Origin: Pseudomonadota bacterium
Lineage (GTDB): Bacteria; Pseudomonadota; Gammaproteobacteria; Steroidobacterales; Woeseiaceae
Assembly: GCA_027618995.1 (NCBI GenBank)
Contig: JAQCGO010000003.1
Span: 106,854 to 170,853 of the forward strand
DNA: 64,000 nt
Reading direction: 5' to 3'
The translations under genes were made by a program, and so were the position numbers. Numbering within the stretch: position 1 is the first letter of the stretch; each line of letters begins with the position of its first letter. Below are positions 37,219 to 52,756 of the stretch, piece after piece. The notes beneath the pieces were generated by a model that saw only the letters and a program-made list of their open reading frames with translations, had not been told where the DNA came from and did not search any database.

Positions 37219-38705
37219 TGCGAGGCCGGTTCCTGCTTGCAATCGATGCGGGTACCAGCAGTACGCGCACGGTTATTTACGACCACCAGGCTCGCGTCGT
37301 ATCGAGCGCGCAACAGGAGTTCGCGCAGCACTATCCGCAGCCGGGCTGGGTCGAGCATGATCCCGAAGAAATCTGGACGGCCGTACAGGCAGTAACGGCG
37401 GAGGCGATGCAGTCGGCGGCGGCCGCCGCGAGCGACATTACGGGCATCGGCATCACTAACCAGCGCGAGACAACGGTGCTTTGGGAACGGGCCTCGGGGC
37501 GCTGCATTTACAATGCAATTGTCTGGCAGGACCGCAGGACTGCCAGTGCCTGCGACGCCATGAAGGCGGACGGCGCGGAGGCAATGATTACAGCCAGGAC
37601 CGGGCTGCGTTTGGACCCGTATTTTTCAGCCAGCAAGATTTCCTGGTTGCTGGACAACGTACCCGGTGCACGCGAGCGCGCGGCCGCGGGCGAGCTTGCG
37701 TTTGGCACGATCGACAGCTTCATACTCTGGCGCCTGAGCAAGGGTCGCGTGCATGCGACGGATGCGAGCAACGCGTCACGCACGATGTTATTCAATATCC
37801 ATACGCAGGAGTGGGACGAAGAACTGCTCGCGTTGTTTGCTGTGCCGAGAAATCTGCTGCCCGAGGTGCACGATTGCGCACACAGATTCGGTGATGCTGA
37901 CTGTGCTGCGCTCGGCGGTACCGTCCCGGTGCTCGGCATTGCCGGTGATCAGCAGGCCGCGCTGATCGGGCAGGCCGGATTTTGGCGGGGCATGACCAAG
38001 AGCACCTACGGCACGGGATGTTTCGTCCTGGCGAATTCGGCCGGCGAAGCCCTGCAATCGAATAATCAGTTGCTGACGACCGTTGCATCACGACTGGACG
38101 GCAAGGTTTGTTACGGTCTGGAGGGCAGTGTTTTCGTCGCCGGTTCAGCCCTGCAGTGGCTGCGCGACGAACTTGGCCTGATCAGGTCGGCGGCCGAGTC
38201 GGAAGCAATTGCGCGCAAAACCGGCGTTGTCAGCGATGTCTGCGTGGTGCCCGCATTCACCGGGCTCGGCGCTCCGTACTGGGATCCGTATGCGCGCGGT
38301 GCGATATTGGGTCTGACACGAGGTTCGGGCCGCGAGCAGATTGTTACGGCGACCTTGCAGGCAATTGCATTGCAGACTTCAGATCTAATCGAAGCGATGA
38401 CGGATGACGGTTTTGCCCCTGAAGTGATTCGGGTCGATGGCGGCATGGTGCAAAATAACTGGTTCCTGCAATTTCTAGCCGATATTCTCAAGCTGCCCGT
38501 CGAGCGCCCGGCGAATGTCGAGTCGACGGCGCTGGGCGCAGCCTGCCTGGCTGGATTGTGTGCAGGGGTATATGGATCAACGGACGTGATTGCGTCAATG
38601 TGGCAAAGTGAGAGGGTGTTCACGCCGGCAATGGGTGATGATCAGCGTGGCGCGTTGCTGGCCGCCTGGAAGACAGCGGTGCAGCGGGTGAGAAGCAGTG
38701 CTTAA
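37218..38705 (+). CDS. glpK: Glycerol kinase
   Basis: AIDAGTSSTRTVIYDHQARVVSSAQQEFAQHYPQPGWVEHDPEEIW; GDQQAALIGQAGF; AYGTGCF-like TYGTGCFVLANSG. Confidence 0.93.
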   Translation: MRGRFLLAIDAGTSSTRTVIYDHQARVVSSAQQEFAQHYPQPGWVEHDPEEIWTAVQAVTAEAMQSAAAAASDITGIGITNQRETTVLWERASGRCIYNAIVWQDRRTASACDAMKADGAEAMITARTGLRLDPYFSASKISWLLDNVPGARERAAAGELAFGTIDSFILWRLSKGRVHATDASNASRTMLFNIHTQEWDEELLALFAVPRNLLPEVHDCAHRFGDADCAALGGTVPVLGIAGDQQAALIGQAGFWRGMTKSTYGTGCFVLANSAGEALQSNNQLLTTVASRLDGKVCYGLEGSVFVAGSALQWLRDELGLIRSAAESEAIARKTGVVSDVCVVPAFTGLGAPYWDPYARGAILGLTRGSGREQIVTATLQAIALQTSDLIEAMTDDGFAPEVIRVDGGMVQNNWFLQFLADILKLPVERPANVESTALGAACLAGLCAGVYGSTDVIASMWQSERVFTPAMGDDQRGALLAAWKTAVQRVRSSA

Positions 38706-39984
38706 AGCGCGGCAGAAAATTGGCAAGTACAGGATACTCGGGCGTATCGCATCCAGTTCGCTGGCGGATGTCTATCGCGCCTTCGACACTATCCAGAACA
38801 CGCGCGTAGCACTGAAGATTCCCAAGCGCGCACATAACATCGGCGAGAACGAGTTTCTGCACGAGGTGCAGGTCGCGACCCGGTTGCAGCACCCGAATAT
38901 CCTGTCCGTGATGAATGCGAGCTATGTCGAGGACCGCTTTGTCATCGCCATGGAGCTGGGAACCGAATCGCTGGCAGGTCGGATCGAACGCAGGCTGTCG
39001 ACGGCGCTGGCCATGGACCTGGCAGGTCAGGCGATCGCTGCACTGGCGTATGCACACGCGCACAAATTCATTCATTGCGACATCAAGCCCGAGAACTACA
39101 TCGTATTCCCGGGCAATCAACTCAAGCTGACGGATTTTGGATTTGCGAAACTCAGCTTGCGTACTTTGAAGGCGTCCGGATCCGGAACGGTTGAATACAT
39201 TGCGCCCGAACAGGCGATGGGTCGACCGAAATTTCAGTCCGATGTATTTTCTCTCGGTCTCGTCCTGTACCGCATGTTTTCGGGTCGCCTGCCGGAATGG
39301 CCATTCACCTGGCCGCTCGCAGGCCATGATCGACTTAGCGCGCGCGTACCGCCCGGCATGGTTGCGATGTTGCAAAAGGCGATTCAGCTCGACCCGAACA
39401 AGCGATATTCCAGTGCGGTTCAAATGCAGACGGATTTCAAGCGCTTGCAAAAACCGGCGCGCAAGGCAAAACGAGCCAAGGTGAAAAAAGCGGTGGGTAG
39501 CAGCGATTCCTGGCGAGGTCTGAAATGGCGCGAGTTCCAGCGACAGTTTCGCAGCAAGTTTGATACCCGGCATCAGTGTCGCAAGTGTTCGGGGCCGGTT
39601 GCCGAGTCGATGCTCGCCTGTCCGTGGTGCCACACCGACAATCCGACCCGCGGGTCGGACTCGCCGATGTCATCGAGTTGCCCGCGTTGCGAGCGTGGCG
39701 TGAAAAACGATTGGGACTATTGTGCGTGGTGCTATGAGCCCGGCTTTGAAGAAGAGACGACGCGCGTTTATTCGGACAAGCGCTATACGTCGCGTTGCAG
39801 TAATGCCCGATGCAAGGGACTGCTTATGCCGTTCATGCGTTACTGTCCATGGTGCCATAGCAAGGTGCGCAAGCCGTGGAAGATAGCCGGGCACAAAGAC
39901 AACTGCACATCGTGTCACTGGAGCATCGCGAAAGAATTCTGGAACTATTGTGCCTGGTGCAAGAAGGCGATCCGGCGTGCCTGA
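38698..39984 (+). CDS. Ser/Thr protein kinase with C-terminal tandem zinc ribbons
   Basis: VALKIPK, FIHCDIKPENYIVF, LTDFGFAKLS; C-terminus with CRKC..CPWC, CPRC..CAWC, CSNARC..CPWC, CTSC..CAWC. Confidence 0.9.
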   Translation: MLKARQKIGKYRILGRIASSSLADVYRAFDTIQNTRVALKIPKRAHNIGENEFLHEVQVATRLQHPNILSVMNASYVEDRFVIAMELGTESLAGRIERRLSTALAMDLAGQAIAALAYAHAHKFIHCDIKPENYIVFPGNQLKLTDFGFAKLSLRTLKASGSGTVEYIAPEQAMGRPKFQSDVFSLGLVLYRMFSGRLPEWPFTWPLAGHDRLSARVPPGMVAMLQKAIQLDPNKRYSSAVQMQTDFKRLQKPARKAKRAKVKKAVGSSDSWRGLKWREFQRQFRSKFDTRHQCRKCSGPVAESMLACPWCHTDNPTRGSDSPMSSSCPRCERGVKNDWDYCAWCYEPGFEEETTRVYSDKRYTSRCSNARCKGLLMPFMRYCPWCHSKVRKPWKIAGHKDNCTSCHWSIAKEFWNYCAWCKKAIRRA

Positions 39985-40804
39985 AGCGCAAATCATCGAT
40001 CCGTTGCTGCTGGACGGGGCGACTGCGCCGGATCGGCATCACGTGCTCGTTGGCGGCGGTGAATTGCTCGCCTATTGCGCGCCAACGCCCGATGCAGATA
40101 CGGAAAACCAGGACGCGGCTGCAGTGATTCCGTACGGCCCGCAGGCCGCGGTCTTCGTTGTTGCAGATGGTGCGGGTGGACTACCGGCAGGGCGACTCGC
40201 CTCGCAAACGGCGGTCAGGGCGCTGATCGCCGAGCTCGAATCGGCCAGCGAAAAGACCATCATATTGCGCACGTCTATTCTTGATGGCATAGAGGCCGCC
40301 AATGCGGCGGTTCTGGGTCTCGGCAACGGTTCGGCGACGACGTTTACCGTGATCACGATTGAAGGATTGACGGCCCGTGCCTACCAAGTCGGCGATTCCG
40401 AGGCGATCATCGTTGGCCAGCGCGGCATTATTCGTCTGCAAACTCTCTCGCATTCGCCAACCGGGCACGCCGTAGAGGCCGGGTTCCTGGATCAGCGTGA
40501 AGCTCTTCACCACCACGATCGCCACCTGGTATCGAATTTCCTGGGCAGTGCGAACATGCGCATTGATATGGGAGCCGAAATCGGACTGCGACCGCGCGAC
40601 ACGGTGATCCTCGCCAGCGACGGCTTACTGGACAACGTGCATACCGCCGAGATCATTGAGCGTGCCCGCAAAGGCCCGCTACTCAAGGCCGCGGACGCCA
40701 TTATCGCTCTTGCACGCCGGCGCATGAACGGCACTGCCGTGGAGCAGCCGAGCAAACCTGACGACCTGTCGTTGATCCTGTTTCGCAAGCCCGGCCGACC
40801 CTGA
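39977..40804 (+). CDS. PP2C-family protein phosphatase (GTG start at 39977 overlapping the kinase)
   Basis: ENQDAAAVI, FVVADGAGGLPAG, LASDGLLDN, KPDDLSLILFR. Confidence 0.88.
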   Translation: MPEAQIIDPLLLDGATAPDRHHVLVGGGELLAYCAPTPDADTENQDAAAVIPYGPQAAVFVVADGAGGLPAGRLASQTAVRALIAELESASEKTIILRTSILDGIEAANAAVLGLGNGSATTFTVITIEGLTARAYQVGDSEAIIVGQRGIIRLQTLSHSPTGHAVEAGFLDQREALHHHDRHLVSNFLGSANMRIDMGAEIGLRPRDTVILASDGLLDNVHTAEIIERARKGPLLKAADAIIALARRRMNGTAVEQPSKPDDLSLILFRKPGRP

Positions 40805-40993
40805 ATTCAAGATTGCAAAATTATGTCAACGTGGCGCGTAGAATCCGTTTTCTGCAGCATTCGGGGGGTGTTGATCGCATGCCGTGCGCGTATTATTGTC
40901 CCCGATGGAACTCAGACACGCATTTTTAGCTCAAACCCATATATTGCGGCGGTTCCGTGACGCCACTACATATCGGTTCAAGAGGGCAGGACG

Positions 40994-42118
40994 ATGAAGC
41001 ACAGCCAAAACATTACGTCGGTACTCCGCTGGATCAAGCCGCTCTTGCTGGCTGCAGTGGCCACGCTGCTAATCGGTGCCTGCAAGTCTGAGACCAGCTC
41101 GAGCGGTGGCGCACCACCTCCGCCGGGTGGTATGCCAGGTGGCGGCATGCCGCCCCCGCCGCCTGGCGGCGGTTCTTCCGGTGGTGGCACGCCCCCGCCG
41201 TCTGGCGGCGGTTCTTCCGGTGGTGGCACGCCCCCGCCATCTGGCGGCGGTATGCCCGGGGGCGGTATGCCCATGCCCGATGGTGGCTCGTCCGGGGGCG
41301 ATGGCACTACAGGTAGTTCGGATGGCGGTGATCAAGGTTCGGGCGGCGTCGGCGCATTCCCCCCGGATGAGGGCGTTCCGCCTCCGCCCAGTGAGAGTGG
41401 CGCTGGCGGCGCTGGCGGCGAAACGAGCGACGGCGAAAGCGCCGATGGTGCCGAGGGCGACAGCTCCGGTGAGGCCGGTGGTGAGGCCGGTGCCGAATGC
41501 AGTGACACCGGGGCATTGCCCGGCGGCATCGGCGGTATGGGTGAGGCCGGGGAGTGCATAGGCGGCGGATCATCCTCAGCGGATAATGAAAACGCTGCCA
41601 GCGAGGGCAATGCCGGTTCAGCCGGTGGCGGCGCTTCAGGCGAAGCCGGTGCAGCAAACGGCGGCATGGCAGGCACCGGTGGTGCCGGCAGCGCTGGAGA
41701 GTTTCCGGAAGAAAGTGCCGAGGAACGTGCTGAGCGTCTCGGCAAGGAGCTCGAGGAATCCATCGGCGGATTCGACGAGGTCCTGATGGAAGAGCAACAG
41801 GAAATGGCTGCAGTGGGTCGCAACACAGAGGGCTTTGGCGAAGGTGCGGGCGACGGTAGCGGCGGAGGCATCAGTCTTGGTGAGCAGGCAGCCGGGTCCG
41901 GCGGCGGTATTACGATCGCCAATACCGGCCGAGCGCGAACCTCACCCACCGCGGGCATGAGTGACGAAGAAATCAGCAGTCGAACCCCGGACGATGTCGC
42001 CACCATGGTCGACGACGACATCATTGCGAGACAGTTGCGTGAATCCGCGCTGGCAGAAGAAGATCCTGCGCTTCGTGAACGTCTATGGGAGGAGTATCGC
42101 AAGTACAAGGGGATGTAG
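40994..42118 (+). CDS. Gly/Pro-rich low-complexity lipoprotein
   Basis: Signal peptide with lipobox LLIGAC; GGGSSGGGTPPPSGGG repeats; acidic helical C-terminal region SAEERAERLGKELEESIGGFDEVL. Confidence 0.75.
   Translation: MKHSQNITSVLRWIKPLLLAAVATLLIGACKSETSSSGGAPPPPGGMPGGGMPPPPPGGGSSGGGTPPPSGGGSSGGGTPPPSGGGMPGGGMPMPDGGSSGGDGTTGSSDGGDQGSGGVGAFPPDEGVPPPPSESGAGGAGGETSDGESADGAEGDSSGEAGGEAGAECSDTGALPGGIGGMGEAGECIGGGSSSADNENAASEGNAGSAGGGASGEAGAANGGMAGTGGAGSAGEFPEESAEERAERLGKELEESIGGFDEVLMEEQQEMAAVGRNTEGFGEGAGDGSGGGISLGEQAAGSGGGITIANTGRARTSPTAGMSDEEISSRTPDDVATMVDDDIIARQLRESALAEEDPALRERLWEEYRKYKGM
41163..41250 (+). repeat. 39-bp in-frame tandem repeat (about 2.2 copies) encoding SGGGSSGGGTPPP
   Basis: ctggcggcggttcttccggtggtggcacgcccccgcc begins at 41163 and 41202, partial third copy from 41241. 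Confidence 0.85.
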
Positions 42119-42127
42119 GGAGTTACT

Positions 42128-43366
42128 TTGCAAAGTATCAATCGAACGGCGCTTACGTTTGCGGCATGTTTCCTGTTGCCTGGTTGCGCCGTCAATGAAG
42201 TTATAACAGCAGAAGAAACAGAGCTGGTCGTCGCGGAAGCTGCGCCGGCCGAGGAGCTGTTGCTGGATATTGGCATTATTCCGTTTGCCGAGGGTATCGC
42301 GAAAGACAACGACCCGGCGGACAGCGGCGTGTATGAAGAAATTCGCTCGGCCGAGTCGCGCTATCTCGCGTATCACCTGAAGACCACCCTGCAGGGGTCA
42401 GGTCATTGGGGTGCCGTACGGGTCGTTCCTTCGAGCAGTGCGTTTACCGATGTGATCATCAACGGCCGGATCGAAGAGTCGGACGGAGAGTTTATTACGC
42501 TTGATGTCAGCGTCAGCGATGCGCGTGGGCAGGCCTGGTACCGCAAATCCTACGCGACTCAAACCGGTGTTTCGTCCTATTCGATCAATCGGGATCGACG
42601 CATGGATCCGTATCAAAAAGTGTTTAACGATATTGCGAACGACCTGCGTGCTTACGTCGCGCAATTGCCGCCGCAATCGGTTACGGCCATACAGCAGGTG
42701 TCGGAGTTACAGTTTTTTGCCGACATGTCGCCACAGGCTTACGGCGAGCACCTGGCAACAGACGAGACCGGCATCGTCAAGGCCGTACGTCTGCCAGCGG
42801 AGAATGATCCTGCCGTGGATCGCCTGCGGCAAATTCGCGAACGTGACCGACTTGTCGTTGACACACTCAACGAACACTACGCGAATTTCTACTATGGAAT
42901 TGCGATCCCGTACAGCGCCTGGCGCAAGACCTCACGTGAGGAGTCGATCAACTATCGGCAAGTCAAGCGTTCAGCTGCATTGCAAACGCTGATGGGGGCC
43001 GTCATTCTCGCCGGGTCATTGGCAGTGGATACTGATTCCGGTGGCCGGAGCTCGCAGCAGGTCAACAGAGACTTGCAGGCAATCGGCATTCAACAGGGAT
43101 TCGAAGCGATGATGGGTGGGTTCACACGCCGCTCGGAAGCGAGCATGCATCTCGAGTCTATTGCCGAGCTGTCGGAATCATTCGGTGCCGAGGCGGCGCC
43201 AATGGCCGTGACCGTGGAAGGCCAGTCGCGGCGGCTTACCGGCACCGCGGCCGCACAGTACGAAAGCTGGCGCCGGATTCTGAAAGAAATCTACGAATCA
43301 GAGACCGGGTTTGTTGAGGTCGCCGAAGATAGTGCTCCGGAGCGTATCCCCGAACCCACGGGATAA
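42128..43366 (+). CDS. Lipoprotein of unknown function (paralogue of 1372..2379), TTG start
   Basis: Lipobox FLLPGC; WGAVRVVPSSSAFTDVIINGRIEESDGE; YESWRRILKEIYESET. Confidence 0.75.
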   Translation: MQSINRTALTFAACFLLPGCAVNEVITAEETELVVAEAAPAEELLLDIGIIPFAEGIAKDNDPADSGVYEEIRSAESRYLAYHLKTTLQGSGHWGAVRVVPSSSAFTDVIINGRIEESDGEFITLDVSVSDARGQAWYRKSYATQTGVSSYSINRDRRMDPYQKVFNDIANDLRAYVAQLPPQSVTAIQQVSELQFFADMSPQAYGEHLATDETGIVKAVRLPAENDPAVDRLRQIRERDRLVVDTLNEHYANFYYGIAIPYSAWRKTSREESINYRQVKRSAALQTLMGAVILAGSLAVDTDSGGRSSQQVNRDLQAIGIQQGFEAMMGGFTRRSEASMHLESIAELSESFGAEAAPMAVTVEGQSRRLTGTAAAQYESWRRILKEIYESETGFVEVAEDSAPERIPEPTG

Positions 43367-43375
43367 GCGATCGGA

Positions 43376-45718
43376 GTGATACCAGACCTGCAAAAAGGCA
43401 CCGAGCTCGCCGGCCGGTATACGCTGCTGCGAACGCTTGGGACAGGTGCGGACACGCAAACCTGGCTGGCTACCGATCGCATGACGCGCGCATCAGTTGC
43501 TCTAAAGATTCGCCGCGGCGAGCGTATTTCACCCGAAGTATTGCGTAAGGAATGGCAAACCAGCCTGCGTCTTATGCATTCGCATATTGTGCGCGTGTTT
43601 GAATTCCACGATGAGCCGGGCTGCACGTTTTACAGCTTGCAGTTCATCGATGGCGCTGATATCAGCGCACTCAGCGGCGCGCCGTTGGCCGACGTTTTGC
43701 CGTCATTGGCCCTGCTGGCTGACGCGCTGCGATATGTGCATCGCAAAGGCCTCGTACATCGCGATATCAAAGCCAGCAATGTCCTGCTGGATCGAAACGG
43801 TGCGCCGTATCTGAGTGATTTTGGCGCAGCGATTTTTGCGGAGACGTCGGCGGCGGGTGGCTCGCTGATTGCGGCCAGCCCGCAGAGCATCGATGGCGCT
43901 GCGGCCAGCCCGGCGGACGACATTTTTGCGCTGGGCGGGCTGATCTACGAACTGGTCGCGGGCCGTTCGCCGTATTCGTCAGCAAATACGGCCGACGATA
44001 TTCGGCACGTGACTCCGCCAACCTTGATCGCGGCCTCGGGCGAGCCGATAAGCCCGGATCTGCAGGCATTGCTGCAGAGCATGCTGGCCATGGACGCTGC
44101 AGTCCGTCCGGATGCCGCCACTGTGGTGCAACAACTATCACTGGCCGGGTACCCGGGCGCCCCGGCGCCCGCGAAATACGTCGGCGGTGCGCCGACCGCG
44201 GGCCCGGAAATTATCGCGGCGCAAACACAGGCACGTTCAAAACCGACGCTCACTGTGAAGAGCGGCGCTGCGGCAACGACGCAGCGCTCATCCGGTATCA
44301 GTGCGCGTACTCTCGGCATCAGCCTGGCCGTCCTTTTGGTGATTCTGCTGGGCGTTGTTTTCATATTGCCGAACACGGTGCCGGACGATTCGGTTCCCGG
44401 GCAAGGCGAAGATGCCGTCGCAGGCACGACGGAAGTCGAACCGCAGGCAATAGAGGCTGCGCCGCCTGCCACGCCCGGGCGCGACGAGCGCGTGGTTTCC
44501 CGCGGTTCGACCGAAGCTATCCTGGGCCAGCTGCTGTCAATGATGGCAACACTTGAGAGCCGCGCCGTGCAGCGCTGGGGCGGGCTGCGTTACAAGCAGG
44601 CACAGGAAATCTATGCGGCGGGCGATGCCGCTTATCTGCTGCGCGACTACGCAACCGCCAGCGACCACTATCGCGAAGCGATCGCTGTGGTCGAGCCTCT
44701 GCTCGACGAGGTGGATGCGATATTCGCAAGTACTTATGCGGCAGCCGGACAGGCGCTCGAAAATGCAAATACGGCTGATGCGTTGCGCCTGTTTGAGTTG
44801 GCCGCCGCAATCAGTTCGGGCCATGCGGGTGCGCAGGCAGGTCTCGTGCGCGCCAGGAACCTCGACACTGTGCTGTCTTTGACTGAGCAGGGCCTCGCTT
44901 TCGAGAGAAATCTGGAGTTATCCGCGGCGCGGCAAAACTTCGAACGCGCGGTGACCATCGATCCTGAGTGGCAGCCTGCGCAGGATGCCCTTGCGCGCGT
45001 CACCGAGACCCTGCGGCAAATGGAATTCGACCTGCGCATGACCGAGGGATTGAATGCCATTGCGGATGCTCAGTTCGAGGTGGCGCGCGCCGCATTCCGC
45101 ATGGCGCAGGCACTCGATCCGGCGTCGCCTGAACCGGCTGACGGATTGATGCAGGTGGACCAGGAGATCCACCTCGATCGAATCCGGGTGCTGGAGCAGC
45201 AGGCACAAACGGAAGAGCAGAACGAACAATGGGAGACCGCTGTCGAAACCTACGAGAGCATTCTCGAGATTGATACCAACCTGGTTTTCGCACAGCAGGG
45301 GCTGGTTCGGGCGCAGCAAATGCTGGCGCTGCATAATCAACTCGAAACATACATCGCGGACCCGGACGGCCTGAGTGCGCCGGCAACCATGCGCAGGGCG
45401 ACCACGCTGGTCGTCGACATCACGCGCATGCCGGTCGTCGGTGCGCGCCTGGCCGACCAGCGCGATGAATTGTCGCGATTGCTGAAACGCGCCGCGACGC
45501 CCTTGCGCGTGGAGCTTGTGTCCGACAACGCCACCGATGTCTCGGTCTACAAAGTTGCTAAACTCGGCCACTTTGCTGCGCATGCGCTGGAGCTGCGGCC
45601 CGGCAAGTACGTCGTGGTTGGCAGCCGGCCAGGATTTCGCGATGTGCGCATCGAATTCAGTGTCGGGCCGGAAATTGAGGCAAAGCCAATAGTCGTTCGC
45701 TGTGAGGAAGCGATTTGA
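43376..45718 (+). CDS. Transmembrane Ser/Thr protein kinase with C-terminal TPR region
   Basis: VALKIRRGE, GLVHRDIKASNVLLD, YLSDFGAAIF; TM ISLAVLLVILLGVVFIL; TPR-like repeats after it. Confidence 0.92.
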   Translation: MIPDLQKGTELAGRYTLLRTLGTGADTQTWLATDRMTRASVALKIRRGERISPEVLRKEWQTSLRLMHSHIVRVFEFHDEPGCTFYSLQFIDGADISALSGAPLADVLPSLALLADALRYVHRKGLVHRDIKASNVLLDRNGAPYLSDFGAAIFAETSAAGGSLIAASPQSIDGAAASPADDIFALGGLIYELVAGRSPYSSANTADDIRHVTPPTLIAASGEPISPDLQALLQSMLAMDAAVRPDAATVVQQLSLAGYPGAPAPAKYVGGAPTAGPEIIAAQTQARSKPTLTVKSGAAATTQRSSGISARTLGISLAVLLVILLGVVFILPNTVPDDSVPGQGEDAVAGTTEVEPQAIEAAPPATPGRDERVVSRGSTEAILGQLLSMMATLESRAVQRWGGLRYKQAQEIYAAGDAAYLLRDYATASDHYREAIAVVEPLLDEVDAIFASTYAAAGQALENANTADALRLFELAAAISSGHAGAQAGLVRARNLDTVLSLTEQGLAFERNLELSAARQNFERAVTIDPEWQPAQDALARVTETLRQMEFDLRMTEGLNAIADAQFEVARAAFRMAQALDPASPEPADGLMQVDQEIHLDRIRVLEQQAQTEEQNEQWETAVETYESILEIDTNLVFAQQGLVRAQQMLALHNQLETYIADPDGLSAPATMRRATTLVVDITRMPVVGARLADQRDELSRLLKRAATPLRVELVSDNATDVSVYKVAKLGHFAAHALELRPGKYVVVGSRPGFRDVRIEFSVGPEIEAKPIVVRCEEAI

Positions 45719-48141
45719 GATTCGATCACCTGATTATCAAGGACGTCAGCGGCGAACGACGCGTAGCTGCCGCCAGCCTGCCGTTGCGAGTCGGCACGGG
45801 CAGTGACTGTGAATTGCGCTTGCCAGGGCCTGGCGGTGGACCGATCGTACTGCTCGACTTGCTGGATGGTGCGCCATTTGTGCAGCCTGTTGGTCGAGAC
45901 TCCAGCCTGCAGCTTAATGGCGAGCCGTTGTTGTCGAGCCGCCGGCTCGAAAATGCCGATCAGCTTGAGTTTTTCGGCAGTCGAATTCGTGTGCTTGCAA
46001 CGGACGGGCGGCTGGTACTCGAGGTGCGCCTTGAGGACAGTGCCTACGTTACGCGTCCGCCAGAACTGGCCGATGCGGAGACAACGACCACCGAGGAGAC
46101 GATCGCGCCGACCGCTTTTCAGCGCGCCAGCAAAACGCAGGCAAGCATTGTCGTTGCACGCCACAGCCCCCTGAAAACCATCGTCGGTGGAGGTTTCGCC
46201 GTGTTATTGATCGCGTCCTATCTGCTCTTTAGTGCGCGGTCGATTCAGTTCGATGTTGACCCCGAGAGCCCCGACGATATTGATATCGCGGGCGGCTGGT
46301 TCCGTTTGCCGCTGGGTGATCGGGTGTTGTTGCGCCGTGGTGAGTACACGGCCAATGTCCGGAAGCAGGGCTACTATGACGTCAGTCAGGCATTCACGGT
46401 CGGCGACGAGCCGAGTATGCGCATTGTGCTAAGCATGCGTCGTTTGCCAGGCCGCCTCGCCGTTACCACGGAACCCTTCGTCGATGCTGCCGTGTCGATA
46501 GACAATGGACCCATCGGCAAGGTGCCCTATGGACCGACCGAACTGCAGCCCGGCCAGCACAGCATCAGCGTGCAGGCCGATCGCTTTTTGCCGTTTAATG
46601 ATGTCATCGAGATTGCCGGGCTGGACCGGGAAGAGCTGCTGACCGTGCAACTGGTACCGCGCTGGTCGGAGGTATCTCTGACCTCCGATCCCGCCGGCGC
46701 CTCGATATATGTTGGCGATGCCGAGCTGGGCGTAACCCCGGCTACGATCCAGTTGCTCGAAGGTACGCATCAAATCAGTGTCCTGCTGGCTGGTTTCGCC
46801 GCCTGGGATGGCGTCGTCACGGCAATCCCGAACGTCGCACAGACGTTGCCACCCATTGCCCTGCAGCCGGCCAATGCCAGGTTGCAGGTCACGACAATTC
46901 CGCGCGCTGCCAACGTGACCGTCGACGGTCGATACCGCGGTCAGTCGCCAATTACCCTGGCTTTGTCGCCCGGCGTCGACTACGTGATCGGTCTGTCCAA
47001 GGCGGGCTACGGTTCGGCGAGTCGCAAGGTACGCCTCGCGGCGGCGGCAAGCGACTCGATCACCGTGGATTTGTCGGCGCGTACGGGCAGGGTTACCGTC
47101 AACGTGTCGCCCGCCGATGCGGTGATCTACGTTGATGGCGCGGCGCGCAGCCAGGGTTCGGTCACGCTCGACCTGAGTTCGGCGCCGCACACGATTGTTG
47201 TGAAGAAAGACGGTCATGAAAGCTGGTCGCGCTCGGTGACGCCGCGACCCGGTTACCCGCAGACGCTGACCGCACATTTGCGCTCGCTGCAGGAAATCGA
47301 GCGCGCGAAAATTCAACTGACACAAAAGACGGCGTCGGAGCAGATTCTGCGACGCATCGAACCGGGCACTTTCACCATGGGCTCATCGCGTGCCGACCCG
47401 GGGCGTCGCGCCAACGAGGTACTGGTGCCGGTCACTATTTCACGGCCTTACCTGATCAGCGTGCGCGAGGTCAGTAACAAGGAGTTTTCGCAGTTCCGTG
47501 CCAATCACGATTCGGGCAGCGACATTCACGCGGCCATGTCCGGCGATGCGAACCCGGTTGCACAAGTGACCTGGGCCGATGCCGCTGAATATTGTAACTG
47601 GCTGAGCGCAATCGAAGGTCTGCAGCCCTCGTACGAGCAAAAGTTCGGTCAGTGGGCGGCGATTCGACCGCTGACCAATGGCTACCGGCTGCCGACTGAA
47701 GCCGAATGGGTCTGGGCCATTCGTTACTCCGGTACCGTAACAGCCCCCAGGTTTGCCTGGGGTCCGTCCATGCCGCCTAAAAACAGCTCCGGCAATTTTG
47801 CCGATCGTTCGGCCTCCGATCTCGTGCCAACCATCATCCCGCGATTCGATGACGGATTCGCCGCAACGGCGCCGACCGGCCTGTTCACGGCCAGCCCCAT
47901 CGGCATTTATGACGGTAGCGGCAACGTTGCTGAATGGGTCAATGACTTCTACAGTGTGCCGACACCGGGCCTGAAGACGCCGCTGCGGGATCCACTGGGT
48001 CCGGAACAGGGCCAAACCTACGTTATCCGTGGTTCATCGTGGCGGCACGCCGGCGAAACCGAGTTGCGGCTCAGTTACCGCGACTACGGTAACGAGGCAC
48101 GCAGCGACGTGGGTTTTCGCATAGCCCGGAACCTGGATTGA
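45715..48141 (+). CDS. FHA-like + TM + PEGA repeats + C-terminal FGE/sulfatase-modifying-factor fold protein
   Basis: RVGTGSDCELRLPGPGG...; TM TIVGGGFAVLLIASYLLF; PEGA units (SLTSDPAGASIYVGDAELGVTPATIQLLEGTHQISV); RIEPGTFTMGSSRADPG...GNVAEWVNDFY...VIRGSSWRHAGE. Confidence 0.88.
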   Translation: MRFDHLIIKDVSGERRVAAASLPLRVGTGSDCELRLPGPGGGPIVLLDLLDGAPFVQPVGRDSSLQLNGEPLLSSRRLENADQLEFFGSRIRVLATDGRLVLEVRLEDSAYVTRPPELADAETTTTEETIAPTAFQRASKTQASIVVARHSPLKTIVGGGFAVLLIASYLLFSARSIQFDVDPESPDDIDIAGGWFRLPLGDRVLLRRGEYTANVRKQGYYDVSQAFTVGDEPSMRIVLSMRRLPGRLAVTTEPFVDAAVSIDNGPIGKVPYGPTELQPGQHSISVQADRFLPFNDVIEIAGLDREELLTVQLVPRWSEVSLTSDPAGASIYVGDAELGVTPATIQLLEGTHQISVLLAGFAAWDGVVTAIPNVAQTLPPIALQPANARLQVTTIPRAANVTVDGRYRGQSPITLALSPGVDYVIGLSKAGYGSASRKVRLAAAASDSITVDLSARTGRVTVNVSPADAVIYVDGAARSQGSVTLDLSSAPHTIVVKKDGHESWSRSVTPRPGYPQTLTAHLRSLQEIERAKIQLTQKTASEQILRRIEPGTFTMGSSRADPGRRANEVLVPVTISRPYLISVREVSNKEFSQFRANHDSGSDIHAAMSGDANPVAQVTWADAAEYCNWLSAIEGLQPSYEQKFGQWAAIRPLTNGYRLPTEAEWVWAIRYSGTVTAPRFAWGPSMPPKNSSGNFADRSASDLVPTIIPRFDDGFAATAPTGLFTASPIGIYDGSGNVAEWVNDFYSVPTPGLKTPLRDPLGPEQGQTYVIRGSSWRHAGETELRLSYRDYGNEARSDVGFRIARNLD

Positions 48142-48210
48142 AATTTCGTGCGACAATCGGCGTCGCTGACGGTCTATGGGTTATAGCGTGAATTACGAGG
48201 AGGGATCCGC

Positions 48211-48459
48211 ATGCGTTCGATGTTGCTGCTGATGTCTGTTGCATTGCTCGGTCTGCCGGCCTGGGCTCAGGAAGACGGTGTATCGGAGACGACGGCAACT
48301 GAGGATGCGACCGTCGAAACGGAGCCCGCTGTCGAGCCGGAGACAACGGAAGAGCCAGTCGTTGACGATGTGTTCTACCAGGATGTCGACGACAAGGACT
48401 TTCGTCCCAGCGAAGACATCCCGGCCGACCAATCCATTACCTTTCCCAGCGATATCTAG
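48211..48459 (+). CDS. Small acidic exported protein
   Basis: Signal peptide MLLLMSVALLGLPAWA followed by E/T-rich spacer and FRPSEDIPADQSITFPSDI tail. Confidence 0.65.
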   Translation: MRSMLLLMSVALLGLPAWAQEDGVSETTATEDATVETEPAVEPETTEEPVVDDVFYQDVDDKDFRPSEDIPADQSITFPSDI

Positions 48460-48474
48460 CGCAAACTGACACCT

Positions 48475-49275
48475 ATGAAAAAGAAGACAATACCGTTCGA
48501 ATTCGTTTACCAGCTTTTTGCGCTGATCATCGCGATTATTGTGGTGCATGCATATTATGTGTCGGTTGTGCTTCCGAATGCCAAACAAGCCATCGAAGAG
48601 CAGAACCTTGCAGCCAAGGCGGACCCGGACTACGTCCGTGAACGAGTGGTCTCGGTGCTCATCAAAGACCCTGAGCAGGAGTCGTGTTTCATTCTCGGCA
48701 TCTGGGCGTTCGCGATCATGGGATACAAGGGACTCCTGACGGTTCGCGAACGCCGCCTGCTGGATGTCGACCTCGTACCGGTGGCCGACGGTATGCGCAT
48801 ACTGCCGGAGGACACACGCGAATTCGCACGCCAGGTCGAGCAATTACCCGAAGATCGCCAGGATCTGCTGTTGCCACGCGCGCTGCTTGGCGCGCTGCGG
48901 CGCTTCAGTTCGACACGGAACATTCAGGACGTATCGAGTACCACGCACACAATTTGTGAAAATGAAGCGGAGCGACTTGAGTCCGAGTTATCCATGATTC
49001 GCTACATTTCGTGGGCAATTCCTTCCATCGGTTTTATCGGTACCGTGCGTGGTATCGGCGAGGCGCTCGCGCAAGCCGACAAAGCCATGCTGGGGGATAT
49101 CGCCGGTGTAACGCAGAGCCTGGGTGTGGCGTTCAACTCAACGTTCATCGCGTTGTTAATCAGTATTGTTCTGATGTTCCTTGTCCACCAGCTGCAGTTG
49201 TTGCAGGAGCGGCTGGTGTTTGACAGCGAAAATTACGTGAATGACAAGTTGATCCGCCACATGAAGGCGGACTAG
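48475..49275 (+). CDS. MotA/TolQ/ExbB-family proton channel protein
   Basis: Four TM helices; ISWAIPSIGFIGTVRGIGEAL...VTQSLGVAFNSTFIALLISIVLMF signature. Confidence 0.9.
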   Translation: MKKKTIPFEFVYQLFALIIAIIVVHAYYVSVVLPNAKQAIEEQNLAAKADPDYVRERVVSVLIKDPEQESCFILGIWAFAIMGYKGLLTVRERRLLDVDLVPVADGMRILPEDTREFARQVEQLPEDRQDLLLPRALLGALRRFSSTRNIQDVSSTTHTICENEAERLESELSMIRYISWAIPSIGFIGTVRGIGEALAQADKAMLGDIAGVTQSLGVAFNSTFIALLISIVLMFLVHQLQLLQERLVFDSENYVNDKLIRHMKAD

Positions 49276-49287
49276 CGGCAACTCACA

Positions 49288-50655
49288 TTGAGCCTGCTAG
49301 CCGCACATTTTAACGATGCCGGGATTTCAGTTCTCGACAGTGAACGAATTCTGTATCGGGAACCCGGCTTCGCGTTGTTGGACGACGATGGGCTGAAGAC
49401 GGGACATGCGGCTTTCGCGAATGCCAGAATCAAGCCGCGGTGCATTCAAAACAGATTCTGGTCTGACCTGCAAACCACGCCCCTCGGCGATCGACGCTTC
49501 CACCACCTGAGTTCCGCTGATCTCGTGAGTCGGCAGCTTGAGCAGGTCTGGGCAGCAGTGGCACATCGTGGTGACCGACTGGTCGTGGCGGTACCCGCCT
49601 ATATGGGCAGCAATCAGCTCGCGCTCCTTCTTGGCATCGCTGCCGAGCTTGGAGTGCCGGTTGTTGCCATGGTCGATGCGGCGGTGGCGGCAACCCGGCG
49701 CGAATATCGAGACGCGGTGCCGGTGCACGTTGACCTCAGCCTGCATGCAACCATGCTCACCAGGATTGCGCAGCCAGGGCAGGCACAGGCAGAGCGCACC
49801 GAGATCGTGGAGGAAAGCGGGCTGCTGGCCTTGAACGACAGCTGGCTGCGGGCTATTGCGGAGGCTTTCGTGCAGCAGTCACGCTTCGATCCGCTGCACA
49901 CGGCAGAAACAGAACAGGTACTGCAGAACCAGTTGGCGTCCTGGATTTTCGCCGCGTCGGCCAACGATAGCGTCGAGATGGAAATCAACTATCACGGAAT
50001 TGTGCATACGGCGGTTATTGAGTCGCTGGCGTTGCTGGCCGCGGCGGCACCCGTCTATCAAAGCATCATCAGCAGGTTGCGTGCTCTGTATCGCGCCGAC
50101 GAGACGCCAGCGATACAGCTGAGCGATCGGGCGGCGCGAATGCCCGGCCTCGCCGACATGCTCGTGGCGCGCGTCGGTGGCCAGGTTTTTCTGCTCGAGG
50201 CCGGTGCGACGGCTCGTGGTCTGATCACCCGGTGTCGCGACATGACGTCAGCCGCGGGCGGCGTCAGCTTGTTGCGCACATTGCCCTGGGATCAGTCCGC
50301 GATCAGTGTGCAAAAAGTGCGGCGCGCCGAACAGGGCGGACGGCCGACGCACGTGTTATTCGAGCACGTTGCCTACGAGATCGACGACCAGCCGATCAAC
50401 ATGGGGTCGCAGCCGGAAAACGATGCACGCTGGATTGATTTCAGGACCAGCATGCCGGGCGTATCGCGCCGGCACTGCACATTGCAGCGCGAGAATGGCC
50501 AATGCGTCGTGCGGGATTTCAGCCGTTATGGCACGTTCCTTAATGGTCACGCCATCGATGGGTCTGCCGTATTGCAGGTCGGTGATCTCATCCGGCTTGG
50601 CGCACCGGGATTCGAATTGCGCCTGATCACGACGGAAGAGGCGCATGGCTCGTAA
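49288..50655 (+). CDS. Degenerate Hsp70/actin-like (ASKHA) protein with C-terminal FHA domain
   Basis: LVVAVPAYMGSNQLALLLGIAAELGVPVVAMVDAAVAA resembles Hsp70; FHA: GVSRRHCTLQRENGQCVVRDFSRYGTFLNG. Confidence 0.75.
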   Translation: MSLLAAHFNDAGISVLDSERILYREPGFALLDDDGLKTGHAAFANARIKPRCIQNRFWSDLQTTPLGDRRFHHLSSADLVSRQLEQVWAAVAHRGDRLVVAVPAYMGSNQLALLLGIAAELGVPVVAMVDAAVAATRREYRDAVPVHVDLSLHATMLTRIAQPGQAQAERTEIVEESGLLALNDSWLRAIAEAFVQQSRFDPLHTAETEQVLQNQLASWIFAASANDSVEMEINYHGIVHTAVIESLALLAAAAPVYQSIISRLRALYRADETPAIQLSDRAARMPGLADMLVARVGGQVFLLEAGATARGLITRCRDMTSAAGGVSLLRTLPWDQSAISVQKVRRAEQGGRPTHVLFEHVAYEIDDQPINMGSQPENDARWIDFRTSMPGVSRRHCTLQRENGQCVVRDFSRYGTFLNGHAIDGSAVLQVGDLIRLGAPGFELRLITTEEAHGS

Positions 50656-51742
50656 GCGGCGCCCATTCGAAGTATTCAGCATGTCGTTTCTCGACTGCAT
50701 GAGCTGCGGCTTTGGTGCGGTGATTCTGCTTTTCATGATCATCAATGCGCAAGTCAAGCAGACCACGGAAGACGACCCGAGCAATTTGATGGCCGAGACC
50801 AGGAAACTGGAGATCGAGATTCTCGACGGACGCAAGGATCTCGTGCTCGCAAAAAATACCGTGGAGCAGCTCGACACCGAGCGCGACACCGCGGAAGGAA
50901 AAATCGCGCAGATCATTGCGTTGATCCAAAAACTGCAGGCCGAACTTGCGCAGTACGACGACGATACTCTGGCCAAGGTCGAGCGCGTCGAACAGCTGGA
51001 AAGCGATATTGAATCGTTGCAGGAAGAGGTCAAGCGTCTGCTTGCCATGGCGGCCGAGCAACAGGCGGACGGCAACAAACTGCGCGAATTCCAGGGCGAC
51101 GGTGACCGCCAGTACCTGACGGGCCTCAGGCTGCGTGGACGGCATACCCTCATTCTTGTCGACCGATCTGCCAGCATGCTCGACGATACGATTGTCAACA
51201 TCATTCGACGGCGCAACATGAGCCTCAAGGACAAGCTGGCGGCCGTCAAATGGCGTCAGGTGGTCGCCAGCGTCGATTGGCTGACGACGCAGTTCGAGCC
51301 AGGTAGCGCCTTCCAGATATACATGTTTAATAACGAGGCTGTGCCGGTTATCAAAGGCACAGAAGGCGTATGGCTGAAGGCCGATGATGCAACGCAAATC
51401 AACGAGGCCATCCGTGTTTTGCGCCTCACGCCGCCCGAGAAAGGTACCAACATGAAGGCGGCCTACGAGATTGCGGCGCAGCTGTCACCGCGTCCCGATA
51501 ACATCATTCTGTTTGTTGACGGCCTGCCGACCATGGACGGGCCGACGGCTGATCGGAGTACGGTCAGCGGGCAGGAACGTTTTAATCTGCATTTTCGGGC
51601 GATACGTGAGCTGCCATCCGGTATCCCGGTCAATGTTTTCCTGTATCCGATGGAAGGGGACTACGATGCGCCGATTCTTTACTGGCAGCTGGCGTTTCAA
51701 ACCAGCGGCGCGATGATAAGTGTCAGTCGTGACTGGCCGTAG
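50645..51742 (+). CDS. Membrane-anchored coiled-coil vWA domain protein
   Basis: N-terminal SFLDCMSCGFGAVILLFMII anchor; coiled coil; MIDAS VDRSASM...KGTNMKAA...FVDGLP. Confidence 0.9.
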   Translation: MARKRRPFEVFSMSFLDCMSCGFGAVILLFMIINAQVKQTTEDDPSNLMAETRKLEIEILDGRKDLVLAKNTVEQLDTERDTAEGKIAQIIALIQKLQAELAQYDDDTLAKVERVEQLESDIESLQEEVKRLLAMAAEQQADGNKLREFQGDGDRQYLTGLRLRGRHTLILVDRSASMLDDTIVNIIRRRNMSLKDKLAAVKWRQVVASVDWLTTQFEPGSAFQIYMFNNEAVPVIKGTEGVWLKADDATQINEAIRVLRLTPPEKGTNMKAAYEIAAQLSPRPDNIILFVDGLPTMDGPTADRSTVSGQERFNLHFRAIRELPSGIPVNVFLYPMEGDYDAPILYWQLAFQTSGAMISVSRDWP

Positions 51743-51760
51743 GATGATGGAGCGCCATAA

Positions 51761-52756
51761 GTGAGACGTCGCCGCAATATTGAAGCATTCAGCCTGTCGT
51801 TCCTCGACTGCATCTGTTGCGGCTTTGGCGCAATCATTCTGTTGCTTGTGCTGAGCAAAATCTACGAGCCAGTTATCATCGAAAAAACCCAGGATGATCT
51901 GGAATCACTGATTGCCTTGTTGCAGCAGCAGCTGTTCGACATTCGCGGCCAGACCACGGTACTGAATCGCGATCTCGAGGATGTACGCATGCAGACCTCC
52001 GACAGCAAGCTGCAACTCGCACGGCTACAGGGCGAGCTCAGTACGGTGCGCGGTCAATATAAGGCAACCATCCGTGAATCCGAAGCAGAGATCGACGAGG
52101 GCGCGCTGCGAGTAACGAAGCAGCGGCTGACCGAAGAGATGCGCAGGCTCGCGCCTTATTATCGGCGAGCCTCGGATGATGCGGTAGCCGGTATCCCGGT
52201 AGACAGTGAGTACGTCATATTCATCGTCGATACGTCAGGCAGCATGCAGCAGTACAACTGGGAACGGGCGATACAAAAGCTCAACGAGACACTGGATGTC
52301 TATCCGCAGGTCAAGGGCATTCAGATCATGAATGACAACGGCAGCTTCATGTTTCAGCAGTACGCCGGCAAGTGGATCCCGGACACGCCGGGACGTCGCG
52401 AGGCCATTATCAACACCATGCGTAACTGGCGGCCGTTCAGCGACAGTAACCCGGTCGACGGCATCATTTATGCGATCAGTACATTCTGGTCGGCCGATAA
52501 GAAGATCAGTGTTTACGTATTCGGCGATGAATTCAGCGGCGGATCGGTAGAAAATGTCGTGCGCCAGATTGATTCGGTGAACCGAGCCGATGCCGCAGGA
52601 AATCGGATGGTGCGCATTCATGCTGTGGGCTTCCCGTACTTTTTCGAGGGTGGTCGCGAAATTCCCGAAACGGCGCGCCGCTTCGCGCAACTGATGCGCA
52701 TTCTTTGCGATCGTAATGGCGGCACTTTCGTCGCGTTGTCTGATCCCCGCAGCTAA
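51761..52756 (+). CDS. Membrane-anchored coiled-coil vWA domain protein (second copy)
   Basis: SFLDCICCGFGAIILLLVLSKIY anchor; MIDAS VDTSGSM; VYVFGDEF. Confidence 0.9.
   Translation: MRRRRNIEAFSLSFLDCICCGFGAIILLLVLSKIYEPVIIEKTQDDLESLIALLQQQLFDIRGQTTVLNRDLEDVRMQTSDSKLQLARLQGELSTVRGQYKATIRESEAEIDEGALRVTKQRLTEEMRRLAPYYRRASDDAVAGIPVDSEYVIFIVDTSGSMQQYNWERAIQKLNETLDVYPQVKGIQIMNDNGSFMFQQYAGKWIPDTPGRREAIINTMRNWRPFSDSNPVDGIIYAISTFWSADKKISVYVFGDEFSGGSVENVVRQIDSVNRADAAGNRMVRIHAVGFPYFFEGGREIPETARRFAQLMRILCDRNGGTFVALSDPRS

Follow-up and report, generated by a model that had tools for sequence, protein, structure and literature searches.

A MotA/TolQ-like channel gene without an ExbD neighbour, and two membrane-anchored vWA proteins as its probable moving parts, in a gene cluster of Woeseiaceae and relatives

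The gene cluster described here lies on one strand at positions 38698-52756 of the window, by which is meant the whole 64-kb stretch of DNA that was analysed, from a Woeseiaceae genome of 2.5 Mb. In order, it encodes a kinase, a PP2C phosphatase, two putative lipoproteins, a second kinase with a transmembrane (TM) helix and TPR repeats, a PEGA/SUMF1 protein, a small secreted protein, a channel protein, an FHA-domain protein and two proteins with vWA domains, vWA1 and vWA2 (Table 1). The original prediction, made from the sequence, held that the two vWA proteins may be the stator partners of the MotA/TolQ-like channel. This idea now has strong, but indirect, support.

The product of the gene at 48475 belongs to the PF01618 family (51.9 bits against a cut-off of 22.9), and both motifs of the canonical TM3-TM4 signature that had been read in it are present. 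Its AlphaFold2 model has a predicted local distance difference test score (pLDDT) of 89.2, and the best Foldseek matches of this model in the PDB are ExbB, TolQ, MotA and ZorA, which are the A subunits of stators; the TM-scores with TolQ of A. baumannii are 0.60/0.70, and the match to ExbB has an E-value of 7.5e-4. As modelled, the protein is a genuine member of the MotA/TolQ/ExbB group. A weak HMMER alignment to E. coli TolQ (E 0.02) places Thr190 on Thr145 and Thr223 on Thr178, which we take to be the pore threonines of TolQ, and the motifs around Thr190 and Thr223 are kept in 128 of 128 relatives.

The channel protein has no conventional partner nearby. None of the cluster's proteins is matched by the ExbD, TolR or MotB families, as had been claimed, and a profile search found no PF02472 (ExbD) match in the vWA proteins or anywhere on the window's contig. 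Profile searches found five PF01618 genes and four ExbD genes in the genome, and no MotB_plug gene. The two kinds occur together on three other contigs, as one pair, one pair and two pairs, so that the remaining four channel genes all have an ExbD gene next to them and only the channel in the window goes without. The presence of four ExbD genes leaves room for an alternative, in which the channel partners an ExbD from another locus. The vWA proteins would then be plain binding proteins with a membrane anchor that happen to share the operon, their Asp being a helix cap or an assembly residue. Every ExbD, however, adjoins a channel gene of its own.

Both vWA proteins have the N-terminal architecture described originally (a short segment, FLD and a single TM helix, a coiled coil, then vWA), and the two segments quoted for it match the translations letter for letter. 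The anchor helix is preceded by a basic stretch, ARKRR in vWA1 and RRRR in vWA2; because the N-termini are basic, a periplasmic location of the vWA heads, also part of the prediction, is favoured. The Asp of the anchor is found in 119/119 vWA1 and 105/105 vWA2 relatives examined, without substitution; the search pattern itself required this Asp, and the only two sequences that failed it were one N-masked and one frameshifted. The residue is unchanged across the order, the class and another class, and relatives from that other class show that the neighbouring Cys and Gly can be replaced (FLDIISSAFAAV) while the Asp is kept, although there the vWA1 genes include it only from a non-ATG start. The single TM helices of the second kinase and of the PEGA protein, which serve as internal controls, carry no acidic residue (20 and 23 sequences). 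The constancy of the Asp in two paralogues and the lack of acidic residues in the cluster's other TM helices both speak against the alternative of a remote ExbD partner.

The vWA1 head passes the Pfam VWA_2 cut-off (32.6 against 27 bits), and vWA2 falls below it (20.3 against 27 bits). The AlphaFold2 model of vWA2 has a mean pLDDT of 76, mostly 85-92 in the vWA part, and matches many solved vWA domains with a best E-value of about 1e-7; DxSxS is kept in every intact copy. No match to vWA2 was found on plasmids. At the C-terminus of vWA1 (51731-51739) there is a nearly invariant (D/S)WP-stop tail, seen in 24 of 24 aligned members.

The two vWA genes stay paired, and a split of the cluster does not change this. 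Both are present in 106 loci. Contig ends cut off most of the others: 17 stop short of the gene, while five have a split cluster. In the three split-cluster genomes that were tested, vWA2 is found at another genomic site and still has its Asp anchor. Linkage of the MotA-like gene to vWA1 and vWA2 is kept across classes, up to metagenome-assembled genomes (MAGs) filed as Acidobacteria, which is hard to reconcile with vWA proteins that merely share an operon with a channel whose partner is encoded elsewhere.

Weaker matches to the anchor led to five sister loci that encode an FHA protein, a channel, PP2C, a trypsin-like protease, a kinase and a single anchor protein; the gene set varies and some of these loci run into contig ends. 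The sister anchor has the motif REINIF[SN][MV]SALDLFAS, with the Asp kept, and HHalign identifies it as a homologue of the vWA anchors (97%; 0/200 shuffles). Four of the sister heads are readable: two are vWA and two are of a different kind, which looks YfaP-like by eye and for which there is no convincing Pfam match. An Asp helix that stays constant while the head changes is what is expected of a motor part and not of a plain anchor, and thus tells further against the Asp as a mere structural residue. As far as sequence comparison goes, this system with exchangeable heads makes the anchor the conserved unit.

The likeness of the FLD anchor to TolR/ExbD, as originally proposed, extends to the register of the Asp but does not reach significance. 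In free local alignments of hidden Markov models (HMM-HMM), the Asp of vWA1 and that of vWA2 each fall on the Asp of ExbD and of MotB, but the scores do not rise above those of column-shuffled controls, 10-28% of which score as high in these comparisons. Several results weigh against a motor role for the vWA proteins. The similarity to ExbD is not significant, about 25% of column shuffles scoring as high, nor is that to MotB, where 29/300 shuffles reach the score for vWA1 and 47/300 for vWA2. In the anchor helix, Cys, Gly or Ala stand at the positions of ExbD's bulky residues, and the Pro of PxxD is missing. Mutual information, used to look for co-variation of the channel with the anchors, was uninformative at an effective number of sequences of 36; its top pairs lay near helix ends and were judged phylogenetic noise. 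No published experiment was found. The HMM-HMM test has little power over some 25 columns; the positive control, ExbD against MotB, was reached by 6/300 shuffles (2%). A combined set of anchors gave no gain against ExbD or MotB, alignment of the sister anchor by itself failed to bring the Asp residues together, and sequence-only profile searches of the PDB either were dominated by coiled coils or gave matches that were too weak. The lack of significant similarity is, with the four ExbD genes, what can be said for a remote ExbD partner; set against the pairing of every ExbD with its own channel gene, the invariance of the Asp and the conserved linkage, we judge that explanation distinctly unlikely.

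A vWA stator partner is an already published prediction, reached independently here. The only directly relevant literature found on the operon (PMC12204202; Mol Biol Evol 2025, Fig. 4c,d) describes genes for TM-tethered vWA proteins (TPH-vWA), in heterologous pairs, that are tightly linked to tolQ homologues without tolR or exbD. These proteins have a conserved Asp in a trans-pore helix, which AlphaFold3 models place within the Thr ring of a pentamer, and the TPH-vWA/TolQ pairs were found with Idiomarina homologues. The window likewise has TM-tethered vWA proteins in a heterologous pair beside a tolQ-like gene, with no syntenic tolR, exbD or motB, and shows the helix Asp, the ring Thr and no SHLS motif. 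Matched by description, the two appear to be the same family. The paper mentions neither the kinases nor the PEGA-SUMF1 protein, and the gene ending in FPxDI and a sister system whose heads differ are likewise absent from it. It also reports a first vWA-headed family, and that such a family exists allows another reading of the window, in which the vWA proteins attach to the ring from outside, as TolA and TonB do, and the ring pulls on them. That family, however, has an SHLS/His helix motif and co-occurs with tolR-like genes, whereas the helices in the window lack His and no tolR gene lies next to theirs, and we regard this reading as highly improbable.

The arrangement resembles several known machines without coinciding with any of them. 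It shares with ExbB-ExbD and TolQ-TolR the ring fold, the Thr residues and a single TM helix with Asp near its cytoplasmic end; it differs in having no PF02472 domain and no PxxD, and a vWA head takes the place of the periplasmic domain of ExbD and TolR. With MotA-MotB it shares the register of the Asp and an aromatic residue at -6 (vFslSFLD against aWxxxyAD), as found in the free HMM-HMM alignment whose score is not significant, but it has neither a plug nor an OmpA-like peptidoglycan domain. In the Agl-Glt gliding machinery of Myxococcus a TolQR-type motor is linked to a vWA protein, CglB. This protein is an outer-membrane lipoprotein adhesin and not a stator partner, and the Agl-Glt motor has TolR-like subunits. 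ZorA of the ZorA-ZorB pair of Zorya is structurally related to the channel (Foldseek, 8vvn). Assignment of the channel as a Zorya ZorA was rejected on an NCBIfam score of 14.2 against a cut-off of 500 bits, a weak PADLOC match (1.1e-3) and the conservation of the cluster across the order. No other Zorya protein was matched among the ten cluster proteins scanned, and Zorya and other defence systems were set aside altogether, the kinase and ZorA matches being the only ones and far below the cut-offs.

A ring formed by the 48475 product around an axle of vWA1 and vWA2 is, we think, the likely explanation of the cluster and the best one available. The two anchor helices would form a two-helix axle in a motor of the MotAB/ExbBD/TolQR type, driven by protons (or sodium), and the vWA proteins are probably the moving part of such a proton-driven motor. 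Asp17 and Asp16 would carry the ions, facing the belt of Thr190 and Thr223 in the ring, and the flow of ions would turn or otherwise move the vWA pair. The coiled coils, of about 95 residues or 14 nm, would bring the vWA heads toward the peptidoglycan and the outer membrane, where their metal-ion sites may grip a partner encoded in the operon: one of the two lipoproteins, the PEGA/SUMF1 protein or the small protein with the FPxDI tail. The kinases, PP2C and the FHA protein would switch the motor on and off. Conceivably the axle is a homodimer, of vWA1 in one motor and of vWA2 in another, so that a single ring protein would serve two alternative motors; this variant is compatible with the ring and axle just described. 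The sister loci have one anchor gene only, so a homodimer is possible in principle. A heterodimer agrees better with the near-universal pairing of vWA1 with vWA2, split clusters included, and with the consistent differences between their anchors (N in one and K in the other after the helix), which makes separate homodimers rather unlikely.

The small secreted protein, overlooked in the first reading of the sequence, is encoded between the PEGA and channel genes and ends in ITFPSDI-stop. An open reading frame (ORF) ending in [FLY]PX[DN]I lies just upstream of the channel gene in 105 of the 122 loci with enough upstream sequence, against a background of only 119 such endings in 26,680 ORF segments of these loci. 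In most copies the tail reads FxPSExI..D..V.FPxDI and the linker is variable. It is speculative to see in this tail a ligand for the metal site of the vWA domains. A fuller picture, of a trans-envelope motor controlled by phosphorylation, with a vWA1-vWA2 heterodimer as axle, vWA metal sites that grip the FPx[DN]I tail and the Asp anchor as a general exchangeable module, is offered tentatively, as something possible rather than probable.

The remaining genes of the cluster are listed with the others in Table 1. The second kinase and the PEGA-SUMF1 protein (43376-48141) probably link cytoplasmic phosphorylation to periplasmic domains. A scan of Pfam profiles found no convincing family for the second lipoprotein, lp2, and its description as a CsgG-like lipoprotein is therefore unsupported.

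Table 1. Features of the cluster, with positions in the window (MIDAS, metal-ion-dependent adhesion site)
Feature	Positions	Strand	Evidence and remarks
kin1, Ser/Thr protein kinase	38698-39984	+	Cluster front in Woeseiaceae; in relatives elsewhere inside or outside the cluster
PP2C-type Ser/Thr phosphatase	39950-40804	+	PF13672 3.6e-13
lp1, Gly-rich putative outer-membrane lipoprotein	40994-42118	+	LIGAC lipobox (motif only); C-terminal segment conserved; in most relatives' clusters
lp2, putative outer-membrane lipoprotein	42128-43366	+	LLPGC (motif only); conserved in relatives
kin2, Ser/Thr kinase, one TM helix, C-terminal part with TPR	43376-45718	+	PF00069 9.6e-30; TPR_2
PEGA-repeat protein with one TM helix and a SUMF1/FGE-like domain	45715-48141	+	PF08308 6.2e-40; PF03781 1.2e-35
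Small secreted acidic protein, 82 residues, C-terminus PSEDIPADQSITFPSDI-stop	48211-48459	+	ORF tail conserved in related loci
MotA/TolQ/ExbB-like channel protein, Thr190 and Thr223 conserved	48475-49275	+	PF01618 8e-14; AlphaFold2; Foldseek
FHA-domain protein, N-terminal part Hsp70/actin-like (by eye)	49288-50655	+	PF00498 4.6e-13; accessory, missing in some relatives
vWA1: Asp17 anchor helix, coiled coil, vWA, MIDAS intact	50645-51742	+	
vWA1 anchor helix FSMSFLDCMSCGFGAVILLFMII, residues 11-33	50675-50743	+	Asp17 codon 50693-50695
vWA2: Asp16 anchor helix, coiled coil, vWA, MIDAS intact	51761-52756	+	
vWA2 anchor helix FSLSFLDCICCGFGAIILLLVLS, residues 10-32	51788-51856	+	Asp16 codon 51806-51808

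Among 100 relatives, 93 gave a match to the channel protein, in a few cases only a weak one to another ExbB/TolQ gene. Within the order, the block lp1-lp2-kin2-PEGA-channel-(FHA)-vWA1-vWA2 is largely conserved. Two genomes that have the main cluster also carry a further, divergent version of it (29-37% identity), which has no FHA gene. In another class within the phylum, twelve loci from one family hold the whole block except the FHA gene; their channel and vWA genes show about 28-43% identity. Used alone, the anchor profile hits 40 of 369 genomes from the window's own class, in most cases as two adjacent genes. At least 575 relatives came up in a scan of named genomes. The 80 best of them include Woeseiaceae, Pseudomonadales, among these one cultured carrier, Pseudomaricurvus alcaniphilus, and MAGs filed as Acidobacteria/Thermoanaerobaculia and Deltaproteobacteria. 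In six MAGs filed as Acidobacteria, Deltaproteobacteria and Rhodospirillaceae the channel is 62-67% identical to that of the window, and so high an identity in distantly filed genomes suggests horizontal transfer or misbinned contigs.

To the published prediction the present analysis adds independent evidence, namely the orphan channel gene, the invariance of the key residues and the pairing of vWA1 with vWA2 in split clusters. Also new are the full operon with its kinase, phosphatase and lipoprotein genes, the overlooked small gene and the sister system with exchangeable heads. If the proposed motor is real, vWA domains would be a further kind of load that ion-motive force drives directly, next to the peptidoglycan-binding and TonB/Tol domains, and an operon found order-wide in Woeseiaceae and Pseudomonadales would gain a testable function.

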